Assembly (NCBI RefSeq): GCF_002214365.1
Contig: NZ_CP014854.1
Coordinates: 372,001 to 436,000 of the forward strand
Length of the DNA: 64,000 nt
Direction of reading: 5' to 3'
Origin: Thermococcus celer Vu 13 = JCM 8558
GTDB taxonomy: Archaea; Methanobacteriota_B; Thermococci; Thermococcales; Thermococcaceae
The notes beneath the pieces are model-generated. The model had not been told where the DNA came from. It did no database searches and saw nothing but the letters and a program-made list of their open reading frames with translations. Positions 4,632-18,297 of this stretch are shown here, one piece after another. The first letter of the stretch is position 1. Each line of letters begins with the position of its first letter. A program made the translations under genes and the position numbers.

Positions 4632-5978
4632 TCACCTCTTTTCAGGGATTATTTTTACAAGGTGAGTCTTAGAGCCCCAGTTGCCCCATGCGAGATAGTG
4701 GTCATACATATCCCAACCGCTATGGATTGCCACGTATTCTACTTGGCCATTGCTGTTCTTTGCGTACCCCACCACAACAACACTATGATCTTCATATGGG
4801 CCTTGCCCATCCGTTGCTTTTCCACCATTCTCAAGCTGAAGTAACGCGGGTCTATAGTTATCAACCTCTTTAATGACATCACCCTCGTGTATGTATCCAC
4901 CCCACAACCAGCACAATCCTAATGTACAAGTAGGTTGTGCATCATAGTTGTTTACAAGTGACCATGATACTATCCCTTCATTTTTTAGTTTTTGATATTC
5001 ACTTGCAAAGGACTCAATCCCATCACATGCGTCGGAGCCGGGGTATCCACACCACCAAGTCCATCCCTTCCTGTCTTTTGTATCAAACGTTCCCATAGTA
5101 TGGTGGAGGATATCAACCAAAGACGTCATGTATCTCTTGTACTCTTCTGTATAATATCCGCTTTCATAGATTTCTGGATGCTCATGGTATGCTATGATCT
5201 GAGCCGCAGCAATTGGGGTACATCCATCCCATAGATCCCATGGATCTGCATTTAGTCCAACATTATTTGGATAACTTGTTGAAGCTCCTCCTAGGTCACC
5301 AACTCCTTCATTGTAAGTCCAATATGAATCTTCTGTCCATACGGGAACACTTGGTATAATCTTAAGGGTAATTGACTCTGTCAGTACTTTGGTATTGGTC
5401 TCACTTGCAGGAGATGCTCCAATTTTTCTCCAGGCGTTTGCTACCTGTTCGCGTGAGAACTCCAGTTTAACGGCTTTCGGAACCAAGACCAGTCTACCGT
5501 ATATGTCCATGGCCTTCCCTTTTCCTATGTCTATGCCATAGCTCAGCCCGCCGTAGTAGAGCAGTCTGTGCCCTCCTGTTGAAAAGTCCTGGATTCTGGC
5601 TGCACCGAGCCTTCCAAGCCTTTTGCTTGGTGCCTCTCCCTTTCCAAACTCAAGAACGGGGGGCATGTATCTCTGCGCCGCCACGAGTATAAAGCCGCTT
5701 GGTTTGCCGTTCACAAGCACGGTGAACTCATAGGCGCTCCTTGTCCCGTTTGGGAAGTAATACACAACAGGCCTGGAAAGCTTTGCATCTTTCCAGTCCC
5801 CGAAATCTGGTACGTTCTCAGATGCCCACTGTACGTGCCTCTGAGCAACGAGCATAGCCTCATTTGGGGCTACGATGCTGACTTCGCTCTTTGCATAAGT
5901 TGTGTTAGAAACTCCGATAAGTCCTCCAAAAATTAAAACTATAAAAAACACTCTTACGTAGCTTCTTAATCGGGCCAC
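4632..5978 (-). CDS. Secreted papain-fold cysteine peptidase-like protein (C10/C39-like)
   Basis: A 448-residue exported protein. Residues 1-29 form a signal peptide. Residues about 30-210 resemble a pro-domain (segment KPSGFILVAAQRYMPPVLEF). The catalytic part starts near residue 215, with the nucleophile Cys253 in DGCTPIAAAQIIAYHE and His398 in PYEDHSVVVVGY; Asp423 or Asn433 (IHSGWD, WGNWG) could complete the site. This order and the GCTP-AAAQ-YH pattern fit the streptopain (C10) and C39-like families, but which family it belongs to is uncertain. AT-rich compared with flanking core genes. It heads an operon with the membrane protein at 4154-4627. It may degrade extracellular peptides; activity is not shown. 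Confidence 0.8.
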   Translation of the reverse strand: MARLRSYVRVFFIVLIFGGLIGVSNTTYAKSEVSIVAPNEAMLVAQRHVQWASENVPDFGDWKDAKLSRPVVYYFPNGTRSAYEFTVLVNGKPSGFILVAAQRYMPPVLEFGKGEAPSKRLGRLGAARIQDFSTGGHRLLYYGGLSYGIDIGKGKAMDIYGRLVLVPKAVKLEFSREQVANAWRKIGASPASETNTKVLTESITLKIIPSVPVWTEDSYWTYNEGVGDLGGASTSYPNNVGLNADPWDLWDGCTPIAAAQIIAYHEHPEIYESGYYTEEYKRYMTSLVDILHHTMGTFDTKDRKGWTWWCGYPGSDACDGIESFASEYQKLKNEGIVSWSLVNNYDAQPTCTLGLCWLWGGYIHEGDVIKEVDNYRPALLQLENGGKATDGQGPYEDHSVVVVGYAKNSNGQVEYVAIHSGWDMYDHYLAWGNWGSKTHLVKIIPEKR

Positions 5979-7745: not shown

Positions 7746-8599
7746 TGGCGAAGGAGATATACTCCACCTACCCGATGGTTAAGTACCTCCGCAGGGAGGC
7801 CCTTCCAACGGCTCTGTGTCCCGGCTGCGGCGGTGGGACGGTTCTCAACGCCTTCGCCAACGCCGTCGATGGGTTAAAGCTCGACCCGAAGGACCTGGTC
7901 GTCGTCAGCGGCATCGGCTGTTCGGCGTGGATAGCCTCGCCCTACTTCCTGGCGGACACGCTTCACACCACCCACGGGAGGGCGATAGCCTTCGCAACGG
8001 GCGTCAAGGTCGGCCTTCCCGACAAGAAGGTGGTGGTGATAAGCGGCGACGGCGACCTGGCGAGCATAGGCGGGAACCACCTAATCCACGCCGCGAGGAG
8101 GAACATCGACGTAACCGTCATCCTCGTGAACAACTTCATCTACGGTATGACCGGCGGACAGGTGGCCCCGACGACTCCCTTCGGCGCGAAGACGACCACC
8201 AGCCCGTACAGGAACATAGAACACCCGCTCCAGATCTCGGAGACGGTGGCGGCCGCGGGAGCGAGCTACGTCGCCAGGTGGACCACCGCACACGTTTACC
8301 AGCTCATCGAGAGCATCAAGACCGCTTTGCAGGTCAAAGGGTTCTCGCTCGTCGAGGTCATATCTCAGTGCCCGGTTCAGTACGGGCGGAGGAACAGGAT
8401 GAAGGAGCCCGCCGAGATGCTCCGCTGGTTCCTGCGCAACTCGGTGCCCGTCTCCAAAGCCAGGAAGATGAGGCCGGAGGAGCTCGAGGGCAAGTTCGTC
8501 GTCGGCGAGATAGTCAGGCGGGAGAGGCCCGAGTTCACGGAGGAGCTTAACAAGCTTGTTGATGAAGTCCAGGAACACTTCGGCCTCAAGGGGGAGTGA
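7745..8599 (+). CDS. korB: 2-oxoacid:ferredoxin oxidoreductase beta subunit
   Basis: TPP- and iron-sulfur-binding subunit of the same enzyme, 284 residues. The N-terminal CPGCGGG holds two of the cluster ligands, followed by GIGCSAW, HTTHGRAIAFATG, and the TPP/Mg-binding region GDGDLASIGGNH with NNFIYGMTGGQ. A further Cys lies in SQCPVQYGRRN. Its ATG overlaps the korA stop by one base, so translation is coupled. Length is normal for the KorB family. Confidence 0.92.
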   Translation: MAKEIYSTYPMVKYLRREALPTALCPGCGGGTVLNAFANAVDGLKLDPKDLVVVSGIGCSAWIASPYFLADTLHTTHGRAIAFATGVKVGLPDKKVVVISGDGDLASIGGNHLIHAARRNIDVTVILVNNFIYGMTGGQVAPTTPFGAKTTTSPYRNIEHPLQISETVAAAGASYVARWTTAHVYQLIESIKTALQVKGFSLVEVISQCPVQYGRRNRMKEPAEMLRWFLRNSVPVSKARKMRPEELEGKFVVGEIVRRERPEFTEELNKLVDEVQEHFGLKGE

Positions 8600-9116: not shown

Positions 9117-9147
9117 TAATCACGAAGATTTTAGTTGAGGTGGTAAC

Positions 9148-12229: not shown

Positions 12230-12325
12230 GTATTTAACGTTCTCTCCAGAACTCCAATGGAAGGAGTTCAATGGTATCTTTTCTGGAAAACGCTTGTTAA
12301 AAACGTTTCTTAAAAAATCCAGATA

Positions 12326-12885
12326 CTGTCGGGATAAGTAGTAGGGTGTTAGGTTTAAGTGCCTGATGATACTTCAGAAAAGAGAGGGGGAAAATGAAGA
12401 CTGGAACCATTATTTACTGGATGATTTCAGTCTTAAAAACCTTTTCGCCGGAATAAGATTCCAGTAGAAAAGAAAAGTAGAGCAGTAGAATTATACTTGC
12501 GAGGCCTCAGTTTATCTCTGGGCTGCGATTGATGTTGAAGGCGCAGTCTGGATTACAACAACTAGAAACTGGTGGATTGCCCGGTCTGGTTGTTTTGAAA
12601 TCCTGCGAAGCTGGTTGATGGTGGGCATTGGTACAAGTCTGCCTTTAAGTCTTTGAGTTTGGACTTTGTTCATGTGACTTTTGGGGGCGGAGCGCTGGTT
12701 CAGGACCCTTAAGGAGAGAACGAGGCGTTTCTGGAATAATTTCAGGGGTAAGGACTGGAGGAAGGTTCACAGGTTTGTTTTCTTGTTTGCTTTCTGGTAT
12801 AATTTTATAGCATTCTCGGTTTGGTCGACCACCTGGTGATGTTGCTGAATGGCTTCAGGAGGTGATGCCCCAGTTATCCCAACAG
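12326..12885 (+). mobile_element. Degenerate IS6-like (ISPfu-type) insertion sequence
   Basis: A decayed element bounded by imperfect inverted ends: CTGTCGGGATAA at 12326 and TTATCCCAACAG at 12874-12885. Near the left end a start codon opens MKTGTIIYW, after which the frame breaks up. Near the right end the plus strand encodes ERWFRTLKERTRRFW, then NNFRGKDWRKVHRFVF and FAFWYNF, typical of the C-terminal part of archaeal IS6-family transposases; the frame then shifts. At about 560 bp it is shorter than a full element of roughly 780 bp. A related remnant lies at 54280-54584 on the other strand. No target duplication is visible. It forms the left edge of the AT-rich island. Confidence 0.8.
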
Positions 12886-12911
12886 AATGTAGTATTTGTT
12901 AACCAAAAAAT

Positions 12912-12919
12912 TTTTAAAT
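12912..12919 (+). promoter_or_regulatory. TATA-like promoter of the peptide/radical SAM cluster
   Basis: An AT-rich TTTTAAAT box, preceded by the purine-rich run AACCAAAAAA, lies about 50 bases before the first small peptide gene. Transcription would start near 12940-12945, leaving a short leader that carries GGAGGTGG. The box lies just outside the right end of the IS remnant. A second AT-rich TAATATATATTTTA at 13258-13271 could drive the radical SAM gene separately. Confidence 0.5.
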
Positions 12920-12965
12920 ATTTGAGAATAAACATAGTTTGCATAAACTGTTGGAGGTGGTATGA

Positions 12966-13106
12966 TTGGCAAGAGTTGAATATGTGAAAAAAAGAATATC
13001 CAAAATAAGTACATACAAAGGAAAAGGCGACGAGGTGCCTTTTGTTTGTGTCAGTTGCTTGCTGTGTGTATCAGGAGTGCTATCTCCCACAAGTAGCATT
13101 ACATAA
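12966..13106 (+). CDS. Putative RiPP precursor peptide A, 46 aa
   Basis: A short gene beginning with TTG five bases after a strong ribosome binding site GGAGGTGG (12953-12960). The 46-residue product has a charged N-terminal half (MARVEYVKKRIS) and a C-terminal core EVPFVCVSCLLCVSGVLSP containing Cys28, Cys31 and Cys34. It aligns end to end with the next small gene (peptide B): MA-R/K-V/I-EY-V/I at the N terminus and E-V/L-PF-V/I-C..C..C..G..LSP in the core. The arrangement leader plus Cys core immediately before a radical SAM/SPASM gene is that of ribosomally made, post-translationally modified peptides. The gene is easily missed because of its TTG start. Confidence 0.7.
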   Translation: MARVEYVKKRISKISTYKGKGDEVPFVCVSCLLCVSGVLSPTSSIT

Positions 13107-13119
13107 AAAGGGGATGTCT

Positions 13120-13260
13120 ATGGCAAAAATCGAGTATATTGTGTTCCGAAAGAAGGAAGAATACACCAAGCCTTACCCCGGAACAACTCAGGAGTTACCC
13201 TTTATTTGCAAAGGAGGTTGCGTGGTTTGTGCGGCGGGCTCAATACTTAGTCCATTCTAA
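13120..13260 (+). CDS. Putative RiPP precursor peptide B, 46 aa
   Basis: A 46-residue peptide starting at ATG 13120 after AGGGGAT; an in-frame ATG two codons earlier (13114) is possible. It has a charged leader-like half (MAKIEYIVFRKKEEY) and a core ELPFICKGGCVVCAAGSILS ending in PF, with Cys30, Cys34 and Cys37. It has the same length as peptide A and a matching core, but cysteine spacing is C-x3-C-x2-C instead of C-x2-C-x2-C. It lies 13 bases after peptide A and 39 bases before the radical SAM gene. It is probably the partner of A in a two-peptide product; the modification type is not known. Confidence 0.72.
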   Translation: MAKIEYIVFRKKEEYTKPYPGTTQELPFICKGGCVVCAAGSILSPF

Positions 13261-13299
13261 TATATATTTTAGCTTGGTAATTAAGGAGGTGCTTAAAAA

Positions 13300-14568
13300 A
13301 TGTCTGAGAAAATATTCCTGCCGAATCCTAAAGCATTGTGGGAAATAAAAAATAACAGAGCAATAATACATATGGCGGATAAAGAGCTTGGATTGGATGA
13401 AGAAGGCACTAAAATCTTTTCCAGAATTGTACAACGCAAGCCTATAAAGATAACTACTCTGGAGCAAGAAGAATTTATAGATGATTTGATAAGAAATGAT
13501 GTGATCTTACCCTATAACCCAGAAAATCCTTCTTTTTTCCCGCCGGGAGCTATAGCTGTTGAGATTACACATAAGTGTAATTTGCAGTGTGAGCACTGCT
13601 ACGTAGGAATACGGGAAAATCCAAGTGTTCTATCTTTGGAGGCGTTTAAGAAGATTGTGCGTGAAATGGAAGAGATGAGTTGTTACGCGTTAGCAATTGG
13701 AGGAGGAGAACCTACTTTACATCCAGATTTTGAAAAAATTTTAAGAGCTATATACAACAGTAAGGTAAGAGCACACATAGTCACAAATGGAACAACAAAC
13801 ATTGCAGATTATCTTGAAAAATATGCAGATAAAAAGAGAAATAGCTTTGAAGTGACTGTAAGTATAGATGGACCCAAAGATATACATGAGAAAATTCGGA
13901 AAAATGCAGTATTTGACAGGATAATTGAAAACATCCAGAAACTGGCGGAATTGGGCTGGAAACCGCACATTCAGACAACTGTCTCCTTAAAAAATTATTA
14001 TTCCATTCCCAGATTATTGGATCAAATTAAAAATTTACCCATTCAAAGTTGGGCAGTTAAGATGGAATATCCCGTAGGTAATGCTAAAGTTCATGCAAAC
14101 ATGTTCCCCTCTCCCCATGAATTTGTAGAAATTAGGGATCAGATTCATAAATGGTGGGAAAGAAGTGGTATCAAAACAATAAAGTTTGTAGATGATTTAG
14201 GGTACTTTCCTCCGGTTCTCAAAAAACCAGCTAAAAGAAGAATGTATTATCTTTGTTCTGCTGGTGTTACTCAAGTAACCTTAGATGCAGATGGTAACAT
14301 TACTCCATGCACCCTCATCCAGATTGCTGATGGAACTTCAAAATACATTGCTGGAAATATATATGTGGATAGCTTAAAGGAAGTGTGGAACACCAGTGAA
14401 TTATTGTGGAAATTTAGATTGTTGTGGCCAGAAAATGAGATATGCTCCCGTTGTGGTTTAGTATGTGCCAAGTGTCCCGCTACAGTGCTTGCAATTGCAA
14501 AGAATCTTTTTAAACCTGATCCAAGATGCTCAATGTTCCAGAGGAGGTGTGGCGATGTCAATAGTTGA
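13300..14568 (+). CDS. Radical SAM/SPASM peptide-modifying enzyme with N-terminal RRE/PqqD-like domain
   Basis: A 422-residue maturase. Residues about 8-75 resemble a PqqD-type RiPP recognition element (WEIKNNRAIIHMADKELGLD...LDLIRNDVIL pattern). The radical SAM core follows, with the SAM cluster ligands Cys93, Cys97 and Cys100 (CNLQCEHC) and GGGEPTLHPDFEK around 134-146. The C-terminal SPASM region has Cys319, Cys337, Cys382, Cys385, Cys389, Cys392, Cys410 and Cys417, enough for two auxiliary clusters. The start follows GGAGGTG. It overlaps the ABC ATPase by 14 bases. AT-rich relative to core genes. Such enzymes install thioether or other crosslinks on Cys-containing precursors; here the substrates are inferred to be peptides A and B. 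Confidence 0.9.
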   Translation: MSEKIFLPNPKALWEIKNNRAIIHMADKELGLDEEGTKIFSRIVQRKPIKITTLEQEEFIDDLIRNDVILPYNPENPSFFPPGAIAVEITHKCNLQCEHCYVGIRENPSVLSLEAFKKIVREMEEMSCYALAIGGGEPTLHPDFEKILRAIYNSKVRAHIVTNGTTNIADYLEKYADKKRNSFEVTVSIDGPKDIHEKIRKNAVFDRIIENIQKLAELGWKPHIQTTVSLKNYYSIPRLLDQIKNLPIQSWAVKMEYPVGNAKVHANMFPSPHEFVEIRDQIHKWWERSGIKTIKFVDDLGYFPPVLKKPAKRRMYYLCSAGVTQVTLDADGNITPCTLIQIADGTSKYIAGNIYVDSLKEVWNTSELLWKFRLLWPENEICSRCGLVCAKCPATVLAIAKNLFKPDPRCSMFQRRCGDVNS

Positions 14569-15502
14569 ATTAAAAAACGTTGTAAAATCGTTTTCAGGTC
14601 CCCAGGGGAATATCGTTGCTGTCAACAATCTAAGTTTTCAAGCAAAAGAAAGTGGAGTTCTTGGTATTCTTGGTCCCAATGGTGCTGGAAAAACGACAAC
14701 TTTAAGGATGATTGCCACGATTTACAAGCCTGACAGAGGCACCATAATGGTTGATGGAATAGACGTTCTGAAGGAGCCTTTGAAAGTCAGAAGCAAGATA
14801 GCGTATATGCCCCAGGAGCCGGATTTGATCCCGTCTTTGTCCGTTGAGGATCACATAACTTACTATCTCCGTTTTAGGGGTTTCGACAAAAAAGAAGCCA
14901 AAAAGTGTTGCGAAGAAGCCCTGAGATCATTCAATTTGGAGAAGCACAGAAACAAAAAGCCCTTTCAACTCAGCACTGGGCTAAAAAGACGGGTTCAATT
15001 GGCATCTGTTTTGTCTGCGGAAGCGCCTGTGATTTTTCTTGACGAACCAACAACGGGATTGGATCCGATGAGCAAGAGGAACACGTGGGAGTTAATCAAA
15101 GACAGGATTGAGGATAGCGGGGCAACTATCCTCCTCACAAGTCATGATCTTTATGAGGTGGAGTATCTTGCAAATCGTGTTATAATCATAAACAATGGTA
15201 GACTAATAGCCGAGGGCACGCCGAGAGATTTGAGAAAAAAGTTTGGTAAGAGCGTTAAAGTTGTATTTGAGGATTCTTTGAGTTTTGACGCTTTGAGAGG
15301 GGAGCTTATGGGTGTTGAGGGAGTGAAAGATATTTCTCAGGTAAGCGAGAATGCAGTTGAGATAAAGCTGGACTCCATAGACCGTTCCATTAACAATCTT
15401 GTCCGGGTTCTCGCATCCAAGGAGCTACAAATTAAGGACATCATCACAACCGCTGCAAACTTCGAGGACGTGTATCTTGAAATACTGGGAGGTGAAATAT
15501 GA
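14555..15502 (+). CDS. ABC transporter ATP-binding protein of the peptide cluster
   Basis: A 315-residue DrrA/CcmA-type ATPase. Walker A is GPNGAGKTTT, the signature is STGLKRRVQLA (a variant of LSGGQ) and Walker B is VIFLDEPTTGLD; the C-terminal third is the extension usual for drug and peptide exporters. The ATG at 14555 follows GAGGTGTGGCG and lies inside the end of the radical SAM gene, so expression is coupled. With the permease downstream it would export the modified peptide or give self-protection. No fused C39 peptidase domain is present. Confidence 0.9.
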   Translation: MSIVELKNVVKSFSGPQGNIVAVNNLSFQAKESGVLGILGPNGAGKTTTLRMIATIYKPDRGTIMVDGIDVLKEPLKVRSKIAYMPQEPDLIPSLSVEDHITYYLRFRGFDKKEAKKCCEEALRSFNLEKHRNKKPFQLSTGLKRRVQLASVLSAEAPVIFLDEPTTGLDPMSKRNTWELIKDRIEDSGATILLTSHDLYEVEYLANRVIIINNGRLIAEGTPRDLRKKFGKSVKVVFEDSLSFDALRGELMGVEGVKDISQVSENAVEIKLDSIDRSINNLVRVLASKELQIKDIITTAANFEDVYLEILGGEI

Positions 15503-16293
15503 TGGACCTTAAATCAGCGGTATCTTCGCTTGGAGTTGCCATTTCAAGGGAAATAAAAATTGGCATGGATTTAGAATTTTTCTTCGGGACTTTGTTTGAG
15601 CCCCTAATATACGTCATGCTCTTTGGACCTTTGATGGGGAAGCTCATTGGAAACGTGAATTTTGGGGGAAATGAAATCTCTTATCTTGCTTTTATGTTTC
15701 CAGGAGTGCTCACCATAATAGGCATCAACCAAGGGTTCCGAGGAGCGGCAACATTTATTCAGGATAAGTTTAGAGGAGGCTTGGAGACACTTTTCACGCT
15801 CCCCGTGCATCGTTCAACTCTCTTCTTAGCAAAGATTTTGGGCTCATGTTTGAGGGCATTAATAGCAATGTCGGTAATATCGCTTTTGGCAGCTTTAATG
15901 GCAGAAGGGCTTTCTTTAACGTTATTGGGAATTTTAAAAAGCTTTTTGATCAATATGACCCTTGTTATAGCCTTAGCAAGCTGTATGGTATATCTCCTTT
16001 CCAAGAGTCAAAACCCAAATCTCCCTCTTGCGATTTCCGGCATATTACTGCTGCCCATGATGTTCCTTTCCACAGTTTTTTATCCTGAAAGCGTCTTCAG
16101 CGGTAGCAGAGTGCTATCTCTAATAGTTGCAGTTAATCCCATGACCCACGCCGCGAGATTGATTAGGTCTTTCATATATTCAACGCCACTACCAGCTTCA
16201 ACGTTGCTGATCTCTACAGCATACCTATCGGTTCTTGCGTTTGTAAGTTTGCTATTGGGCATCAGGGGATTTTCACGGGCATTGGAGCGCTAA
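15499..16293 (+). CDS. ABC-2 type permease of the peptide cluster
   Basis: A 264-residue membrane protein of the ABC-2 family with six hydrophobic segments and the conserved FMFPGVLTIIGINQGF and GLETLFTLPVHRSTL regions. Its ATG overlaps the ATPase stop (ATGATG). It pairs with the ATPase to make an exporter. The product, inferred from context, is the modified peptide. Confidence 0.88.
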   Translation: MMDLKSAVSSLGVAISREIKIGMDLEFFFGTLFEPLIYVMLFGPLMGKLIGNVNFGGNEISYLAFMFPGVLTIIGINQGFRGAATFIQDKFRGGLETLFTLPVHRSTLFLAKILGSCLRALIAMSVISLLAALMAEGLSLTLLGILKSFLINMTLVIALASCMVYLLSKSQNPNLPLAISGILLLPMMFLSTVFYPESVFSGSRVLSLIVAVNPMTHAARLIRSFIYSTPLPASTLLISTAYLSVLAFVSLLLGIRGFSRALER

Positions 16294-16323
16294 TCTTCTT
16301 TTTACTTCACGGAGGTGTGAAAT

Positions 16324-16647
16324 TTGATTCTAACCTTTGTCTATTTCCTTTTTGGATTTTTACTCGCGTTCTGTCCTTTCACAGGAATACCGGCCATACT
16401 GATAGGTATCTTATTCGTCAAAATCGATACTAAAGCCAAGCTCGCGTACTCCCTCGCGGGTTTTGTGGCGGGAACCCTGGCTGGAGCATCCCTGTGGGGG
16501 AGCTCTTGGATCTTTGAGCAACTCAGATGGGGTTATCAGGAACATGGAATATGGGGGTTTATCGGGGGCACAACGATTATCCTGCTGTTAGCCATTCTCT
16601 TGGCCCGGGTTCTTAATAAGAAGTATCCGATGGGTGATGCAAAATGA
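16324..16647 (+). CDS. Small membrane protein of the peptide cluster, 107 aa
   Basis: A 107-residue protein with three hydrophobic segments. It begins with TTG (16324) after GGAGGTGTGAAAT. The stop overlaps the start of the next gene (ATGA). No family recognised. Its position after the exporter genes is where RiPP clusters often carry immunity or accessory membrane proteins; this role is inference only. Confidence 0.65.
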   Translation: MILTFVYFLFGFLLAFCPFTGIPAILIGILFVKIDTKAKLAYSLAGFVAGTLAGASLWGSSWIFEQLRWGYQEHGIWGFIGGTTIILLLAILLARVLNKKYPMGDAK

Positions 16648-17120
16648 AGTATACTGTTTTGGATTTTATATCGGTGGCGATAGCATATGGCATTATAGCA
16701 TATTCTACTCAACTTTTGGGTTTTTATGCTATGCTCCAACTCATGAGTGCCCCTATCTGGAAGATGTGGGTTGCTATAATCGGTGTGGGAATTAAGTTTC
16801 TGTTACAAGTTTCAATAATCTGGTTTTTTATTCGGATAATGCTGGGGTATACCCTTAAGACGACTGATATTAGCTCTGCGTTTGTTCCATTGATTATAGC
16901 CGGGATTTTCTGTTTCGTTTTGAGGTTTGTTGGATACTTTATCCTAACCAATGTGTATCTTATTTCATTAAGACATATTCTGGAAAACATTTCTATGGCT
17001 ATAGGGTGGTTTTTGTCACTTTACCTCCTTGGAAAGAAAATATCGCTGAGTCCTTTAAAGAAACATGTAGTAATATTTGGTATTGGGCTGTTGGTCTATT
17101 TTGTTCTCCCACCGATTTGA
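16644..17120 (+). CDS. Membrane protein of the peptide cluster, 158 aa
   Basis: A very hydrophobic 158-residue protein with about five membrane segments, AT-rich, translationally coupled to the preceding gene. No family recognised. A possible immunity or assembly role comes only from context. It is the last clearly intact gene of the coupled run. Confidence 0.65.
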   Translation: MKYTVLDFISVAIAYGIIAYSTQLLGFYAMLQLMSAPIWKMWVAIIGVGIKFLLQVSIIWFFIRIMLGYTLKTTDISSAFVPLIIAGIFCFVLRFVGYFILTNVYLISLRHILENISMAIGWFLSLYLLGKKISLSPLKKHVVIFGIGLLVYFVLPPI

Positions 17121-17134
17121 TTTAGAACCCTTAA

Positions 17135-17302
17135 TATGGAAACGTATCTTTTGCAATAGGCGAGATCATTGGAGCGGTGATAGGCTTTGTGGGTACAGGT
17201 GATGCCTATTCAAACCAATGGCGGTACCTGTGGTGGGTACCCGTTCTCTTATTCGTCGCTTCGCTCGTGGGAATCTTGAAGGGCACTCTCAAGAGAGCGT
17301 GA
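17135..17302 (+). pseudogene. C-terminal fragment of a membrane protein
   Basis: An open stretch with no acceptable start codon upstream (a TAA precedes it at 17132-17134) encodes a hydrophobic tail: GEIIGAVIGFVGTGDAYS followed by NQWRYLWWVPVLLFVASLVG and a Lys/Arg-rich end. It looks like the 3' end of a lost membrane gene. GC content is visibly higher than in the flanking cluster genes. A non-standard start inside the stretch cannot be excluded. Confidence 0.5.
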
Positions 17303-17350
17303 TTGGAGTACTGGAAGTAGGTTTCAGAAAATACAGAGAAACGTGGGGGG

Positions 17351-17689
17351 ATGTCAATGAACGCATTTAATAAATTGAGGTTTGTTATTCAATCTGCACT
17401 CCTTTTGGGAATACTTAGACTGACTCTAAAGGTTCTACCCGGTTTGAAGGTCTACCTGAAATCGACTGTACCCCTGGCGTTGGCCGGCATAACTGGGTCA
17501 ATGCTAAGGCTTTTTTACAACGATTGGGTACCTTTTAGAATGATCGTGGAGCAGGTGGCTCTAATGTCCGGCTTGATATTAGCCATGCTATTGCCGGGTA
17601 GAGAATTGGGTGCTGGAAGGATATCACACATATCTTGCGCTTTAGTGGGACTCTTGGTATTTTTGGTCATTGTTCCTGTCCCTCTTTAA
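17351..17689 (+). CDS. Membrane protein, 112 aa
   Basis: A 112-residue protein with three to four hydrophobic segments. The ATG at 17351 follows GGGGGG closely; an alternative ATG is at 17357. No family recognised. It is the right-hand edge of the accessory island, after the fragment at 17135-17302. Confidence 0.6.
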   Translation: MSMNAFNKLRFVIQSALLLGILRLTLKVLPGLKVYLKSTVPLALAGITGSMLRLFYNDWVPFRMIVEQVALMSGLILAMLLPGRELGAGRISHISCALVGLLVFLVIVPVPL

Positions 17690-17737: not shown

Positions 17738-18297
17738 CTAATCCTCCAACTTAAGGAGTTTTCTCAGTTTCTTTGCTTCTTCCTGCAGTTTGGGGGAGTT
17801 TATCAAAACCAAGAGGTTCATGAGGTGTATAAACTCAATGGGATCTATGTCCATACCTTCCAGACGCTTGACTAAATCCCGCGAGAGGGTTTCCAAACTC
17901 GAGAGGAAGGTTTTTATCACATTTATAAAGAGGGTTCTGTCCTCAATTTCAAATCCCGCTCGTTTAAAGAGATTGTAGAGCGTCTCAGCTTCCCGGTGAT
18001 GAATTGCATCCATTGTGGGGGTTATGAGGTTCCCCTCTCCCGCTGGTGCTATGAGGAATATCCTCGCCGTCCTTCGATAGAGCTTTTCGTTGCCCTCCTT
18101 TCCCACAGCCCTTACAAATCCCGCCTTTTCCAGGAGATTTATGTGGCGGTATATCGTCGAGACATCCTTCTTTAATAGGATGCTGAGCCCGGAAGCGGCC
18201 ATGGGGCGCTCCCTAAGCAGTTGATTATCTCAAGCCTCGTTCTATCCGCAAGTAGCTTAATCTTCTCCGGGTCGGTAACGATAAGAACGTCCTTCAT
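17738..18297 (-). pseudogene. ArsR-like winged-helix regulator disrupted by a frameshift
   Basis: Read on the minus strand, an ATG at 18295-18297 opens MKDVLIVTDPEKIKLLADRT followed by RLEIIN, the usual N terminus of archaeal ArsR-type regulators. At about 18217-18221 one base appears to be missing; in the next frame the sequence continues LRERPMAASGLSILLKKDVS followed by TIYRHINLLEKAGFV, the recognition helix and wing, and then a long C-terminal helical part to 17738. Restoring one base gives a continuous protein of about 185 residues. Either the gene is broken or the sequence has an error. It lies downstream of a permease remnant and a DUF211 fragment. Confidence 0.75.

Follow-up and report, generated by a model that had tools for sequence, protein, structure and literature searches.

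A 64,000-nucleotide stretch of the closed 1.87-Mb genome of Thermococcus celer (Thermococcaceae; contig NZ_CP014854.1, positions 372,001–436,000), hereafter the window, carries a tightly ordered plus-strand cassette at positions 12966–16293: two 46-residue peptide genes, a radical S-adenosylmethionine (rSAM)/SPASM enzyme, and a DrrA/DrrB-like ATP-binding cassette (ABC) exporter. The assignment as a cassette of precursors, rSAM/SPASM maturase, and exporter, of the kind that makes ribosomally synthesized and post-translationally modified peptides (RiPPs), is well supported by sequence comparison. We read it as a mobile cassette whose paired precursors would be rSAM-modified, thioether cross-linked, exported, and used as narrow-spectrum antagonists, a reading to which we give a probability of about 0.72. 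The window's genome is labeled G000, and the other genomes compared are G001, G004, G021, G034, G042, G059, G074, and G080.

Both precursor genes were delineated as open reading frames (ORFs) and corroborated by homology and profile search. Peptide A (12966–13106; core PFVCVSCLLC) begins at a TTG codon preceded immediately by a GGAGGTG site; this start is fixed by homology, as its relatives have ATG at the same codon (MAKIEYV in G004, or MAGIIYF). Peptide B (13120–13260; core PFICKGGCVVC) begins with ATG. Upstream, an A-run followed by a T/A-rich TATA-like box, read by eye, forms a candidate archaeal TATA/TFB-recognition-element (BRE) promoter 5′ of peptide A (12905–12925), and its position is kept in three genomes. 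Across five peptides, M1, A2, Y6, Y17, G19, P25, F26, C28, C31, and C34 (A numbering) are invariant, defining a leader pattern of MA...Y and Y.G and a core of PF-x-C-x(2,3)-C-x2-C, with type B peptides having one more residue between the first and second cysteines than type A. No Pfam or NCBIfam model matched the peptides, in agreement with the initial annotation, which had held that the cores resemble no known product.

Both types are retained in G000 and G004. Identity is 64–68% between B peptides and 38–55% between A and B peptides; because the former exceeds the latter, the B type, at least, is probably older than the split of the G000 and G004 loci. The A peptides share 50% identity, which is not above all A–B values. 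Nei–Gojobori counts of nonsynonymous (dN) and synonymous (dS) divergence, with dS values near saturation, gave a dN of 0.22, a dS of 2.17, and a dN/dS of ~0.1 for peptide B; the corresponding values for peptide A (0.46, 1.07, and ~0.43) are noisy for so short a peptide. These counts indicate clear purifying selection on the encoded peptide B and weaker selection on peptide A. The maturase gave a dN of 0.22 and a dS of 2.97, the latter likewise near saturation.

Conservation of the peptides followed that of the maturase and exporter. Among 94 Thermococcales genomes, maturase orthologues occur in only two besides G000, namely G004 (68% identity) and G074 (69%), the next match falling to 35%; the same gap appears when 115 genomes of the phylum are searched by profile. 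At both orthologous loci the maturase is followed immediately by the exporter pair and preceded immediately by peptide genes, two in G004 and one in G074, and this peptide–rSAM/SPASM–ABC–permease order recurs in three genera at unrelated chromosomal sites. A peptide profile run against the 94 genomes matched only the five peptides (expectation value, E, ~1e-22; next best, 0.02), values that are circular in that the profile was built from these same five; independent pairwise tblastn of the peptides against the loci gave E = 7e-16, 3e-11, and 1e-8. The refuting test set by the initial annotation, namely whether the peptides recur beside homologous maturases, was passed: all three maturase-bearing genomes encode the family, and none of the other 91 does. 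An encoded precursor conserved beside its modifying enzyme, one mark of RiPP membership, is found at every known locus and nowhere else in this set.

Searches beyond these genomes returned little. Two degenerate-pattern scans found no relative in a collection of genome contigs from which near relatives of the window's genome are possibly absent, and a viral scan together with plasmid tblastn yielded only distant rSAM proteins (≤32% identity). By the evidence of its sequence, the cassette is a horizontally moved one, and its occurrence in 3 of 94 genomes, across three genera and at varied sites, together with low G+C and a neighboring insertion sequence, suits an antagonistic peptide.

The maturase (13300–14568; 422 aa) was characterized through Pfam, its orthologues, and a structural model. 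Radical_SAM (PF04055; 6.7e-25) and SPASM (PF13186; 4.5e-10) both score above cut-off, and the CxxxCxxC motif (C93, C97, and C100) and seven C-terminal cysteines are invariant in the three orthologues; the enzyme thus combines the rSAM motif with the SPASM cysteines for auxiliary clusters that characterize rSAM/SPASM proteins. It reaches the cut-off of no NCBIfam family, its best matches being TIGR04133, the ACGX system, and mycofactocin. Scores against curated sactisynthases (AlbA, 67.4 bits vs. a cut-off of 850; StsB, 72.6 vs. 625) and the ranthipeptide maturase PapB (70.8 vs. 340) fall short, and the SCIFF maturase lies outside the best 25 matches. By sequence, the nearest solved proteins include SuiB, SkfB, PqqE, and anaerobic sulfatase maturases.

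A low-confidence model of the maturase (mean predicted local distance difference test score, pLDDT, 47.8, from an alignment of three) gave SuiB, PqqE, TigE, and SkfB among the leading fold matches, so that the RiPP maturases SuiB, TigE, and SkfB stand among the best structural neighbors; SuiB aligned over nearly its whole length, with a template-modeling (TM) score of only 0.37. In this full model, the N-terminal ~70 residues form strands at 13–31 and then helices at 34–44 and 54–65 (pLDDT ~60–78). Strands followed by two helices are the topology expected of a PqqD-like recognition element, and the model makes an N-terminal RiPP recognition element (RRE; residues ~8–72) plausible.

The exporter comprises a DrrA-like ABC ATPase (14555–15502; 315 aa) and a DrrB-like ABC-2 type permease (15499–16293; 264 aa), the last conserved gene of the cassette; both were assigned from Pfam, NCBIfam, and the orthologous loci. 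The Pfam families ABC_tran and ABC2_membrane score above cut-off, and the best NCBIfam matches, TIGR01188 and TIGR01247, each score below it. In the ATPase the only matches are ABC_tran and, weakly, the DrrA C-terminal domain, and Pfam detected on the transporter no C39 peptidase domain, the criterion for a peptidase-containing ATP-binding cassette transporter (PCAT). Several features proposed in the initial annotation are borne out here: the twin 46-residue peptides precede the rSAM/SPASM gene, the ATPase overlaps the maturase by 14 nt, the permease overlaps the ATPase (by 4 nt), and no dedicated leader peptidase is present, either as a gene in the conserved unit or as a domain of the exporter.

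In the proposed mechanism, the rSAM/SPASM enzyme would bind the conserved charged leader (MA.IEY...Y.G) of the two related precursors and cross-link their hydrophobic cores (PF.C..(.)C..C). The cross-links would most likely be thioethers joining the three cysteines to carbon atoms of residues elsewhere in the core. Export of the product would fall to the DrrA/DrrB-like transporter, which may also shield the producer, with leader removal left to a host protease. The mature product is probably a narrow-spectrum peptide directed against related archaea, A and B possibly acting together. We thus regard the product as probably a thioether-linked, Cys-core RiPP and possibly a two-component one.

The cassette has edges at ~12890 and 16303. 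On the left lies a decayed insertion sequence (IS) identified by DNA search (12322–12890, plus strand) and multicopy in Thermococcales: positions 83–650 of a query spanning 12240–12900 match many copies in G000 and in other Thermococcales genomes. The G+C content of the region is ~0.38–0.48 against ~0.60 outside; that of the cassette is 0.40 against ~0.56–0.60 around it, and the G004 and G074 cassettes are also lower than their flanks (0.39 vs. 0.44–0.47). The borders showed neither a tRNA nor an Rfam element, and no direct repeats flanking the cassette were convincing.

Behind the permease lie three plus-strand membrane genes, mem1 (16324–16647), mem2 (16644–17120), and mem3 (17351–17689), which the initial annotation had counted as part of the cluster. 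Their codirectional position close behind the permease would fit an immunity or leader-processing role, and they could be transcribed together with the RiPP unit at present. Yet neither orthologous locus has mem1–mem3. In G034, a genome that lacks the maturase, the match to mem1 and mem2 reaches 97% identity, and mem2 has further relatives in G042, G001, and G021. Blastn homology to G034, G042, and G001 starts at 16303 in all three, and the short segment retained in the window from that point (16303–16319; TACTTCACGGAGGTGTGA) aligns with the 3′ end (YFTEV stop) of the gene that lies ahead of mem1 in those genomes and encodes a secreted protein of ~230 aa. By homology, mem3 lacks the N-terminal third of its 160-aa relative in G042. 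Because the homology opens at 16303 on the remnant of a lost gene and mem3 is truncated, mem1–mem3 derive, on this alignment evidence, from a different cassette, which places the end of the RiPP unit at ~16300; a part for them in the cluster is very improbable.

Several observations weigh against the reading of a thioether-linked, exported antagonist. The conserved unit contains neither a peptidase nor an obvious immunity gene, a CxxCxxC core could also bind metal, and only three loci are known, in one of which, that of G074, the maturase gene is frameshifted by a single base within an A-run near codon 57 (L039 around 8315–8330, minus strand; sequencing error, decay, or slippage). The N-terminal RRE, already proposed for the maturase in the initial annotation, keeps its strand–helix topology in the predicted model but gains no sequence support: Pfam, hhalign against PqqD-like proteins (a comparison of two shallow alignments), and a profile search of PDB chains did not detect it. 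An AlphaFold2 model of the isolated N-terminal domain differed from the full model, and Foldseek gave no meaningful fold match.

A modified peptide that serves not as an antagonist but as a cell–cell signal or a redox or metal cofactor would accommodate part of this, since CxxCxxC is a common metal-binding pattern and no cognate immunity gene is conserved; mycofactocin-like and signal-peptide systems also use enzymes of the same superfamily. We nevertheless judge a signaling or metal-binding role unlikely, though deserving of some weight: a dedicated exporter is present at all three loci, the very patchy distribution and mobile context are ill-suited to a core cofactor, and the cassette brings with it neither a dependent dehydrogenase gene nor a receptor gene. 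Less probable again is an enzyme that modifies the peptides without forming thioethers, through carbon–carbon links, epimerization, or some other rSAM chemistry, while the cysteines stay free, pair in disulfides, or bind metal. Its closest solved and curated relatives are indeed chemically varied (SuiB, which forms a carbon–carbon link; the epimerase EpeE; PqqE; and the mycofactocin enzyme MftC), and no thioether-enzyme cut-off is reached; however, few core residues are invariant and all three cysteines are among them, whereas other possible target positions vary. That the short ORFs are not substrates at all and adjoin the maturase by chance, as their length of only 40–47 codons might allow, is hardly credible given their exclusive co-occurrence with it in 94 genomes, pairwise E values down to 7e-16, and purifying selection on peptide B.

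The thioether-linked antagonist reading can be set beside known systems. The initial annotation had likened the gene order to that of sactipeptide or ranthipeptide clusters; the architecture is indeed alike, but no curated sactisynthase or ranthipeptide cut-off is reached, and the likeness is architectural only. In Bacillus subtilis, the sporulation killing factor cluster skfA-skfB-skfC-skfE-skfF begins with a short Cys-containing precursor, which is followed immediately by an rSAM/SPASM maturase and then by an ABC ATPase and permease. The present cassette shares this precursor–maturase–ABC–permease order, and SkfB ranks among the best matches of the maturase in both sequence and structure; the cassette differs in having three core cysteines, two precursors, and a maturase that falls below every curated sactisynthase cut-off, and its conserved unit lacks both a CPBP protease gene and a thioredoxin-like gene. 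Thuricin CD (Trn-alpha/Trn-beta) is a two-component sactibiotic made from two related precursors with three core cysteines each, encoded with rSAM and ABC genes. The same combination is found here, but with one maturase instead of two and tighter cysteine spacing. Ranthipeptide systems of the PapB and SCIFF type likewise pair a Cys-bearing core with an rSAM/SPASM enzyme carrying auxiliary-cluster cysteines; against these stand the low PapB score noted above and precursors outside every Pfam and NCBIfam family.

Genome mining has predicted rSAM-dependent RiPPs, among them ranthipeptides and sactipeptides, widely in archaea, and the clusters described in the main text of that study (Song et al. 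2025, PMC12144867) are of the same broad kind as this one. Neither Thermococcales nor Pyrococcus is named in that main text, and the locus may be in the supplement. The study gives the archaeal RiPP products validated earlier as only two haloarchaeal lanthipeptides, adds more lanthipeptides to these, and describes rSAM RiPPs as a predicted group still to be explored in archaea. We found no published description of the cassette or its precursor family among open-licence papers, supplements excluded, and a genome-mining listing is possible. The family would thus be one of rSAM-modified Cys-core RiPPs with a predicted cross-link, within an already predicted kind. More tentatively, and with the balance leaning against it, it may constitute a new thioether RiPP class of hyperthermophilic archaea in which a two-component three-Cys pair, served by one new rSAM family, forms a mobile anti-archaeal weapon. 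The cassette offers a compact, testable precursor–enzyme pair. Coming from an organism that grows close to the boiling point, the enzyme and its product might prove sufficiently stable for studies of structure and mechanism.

The secreted ~230-aa protein whose stub adjoins mem1 belongs to a cassette with two small membrane proteins (L096 6736–10245, minus strand; also L095 and L097). It is present twice in G042, the window retains its rump at 16303–17689, and four members tested gave no significant Pfam match; it may be a toxin–immunity or surface system. Beyond mem3, a winged-helix regulator gene (17738–18297, minus strand) looks frameshifted, with its N-terminal part (MKDVLIVTDPEKIKLLADRTRLEIINCL) in another frame; its relatives have open frames of ~185–200 aa.

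Other peptide-like clusters were noticed. In G059 and G080, the rSAM loci with 28–35% identity to the maturase were set aside as part of a different RiPP-like cluster (L041 456–4243; partial in L040), which has two rSAM/SPASM genes, a major facilitator superfamily (MFS) transporter, and a PqqD protein (PF05402, 4.7e-12); in G059 it includes an ORF of 65 aa that contains the repeat (I/L)GPICAPEAHW twice. G000 itself holds two more candidates on the minus strand of C1:1-13000. One, at 9139–5202, is a second candidate rSAM-peptide cassette, in which a 31-aa ORF (MVKTILSRLISGPTPAGGCCNRSQRCKNLLF) accompanies an rSAM/SPASM protein of 435 aa (best matches CefB and geopeptide maturases, below cut-off), an ABC ATPase, and two permeases; it adjoins a copy of the same IS remnant as that at 12322–12890. 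The other, at 4691–2108, combines a 26-aa ORF (MKKKLKIRKLSNAGCYHWNSHDSVGL) with an rSAM/SPASM protein (431 aa) and an MFS transporter.

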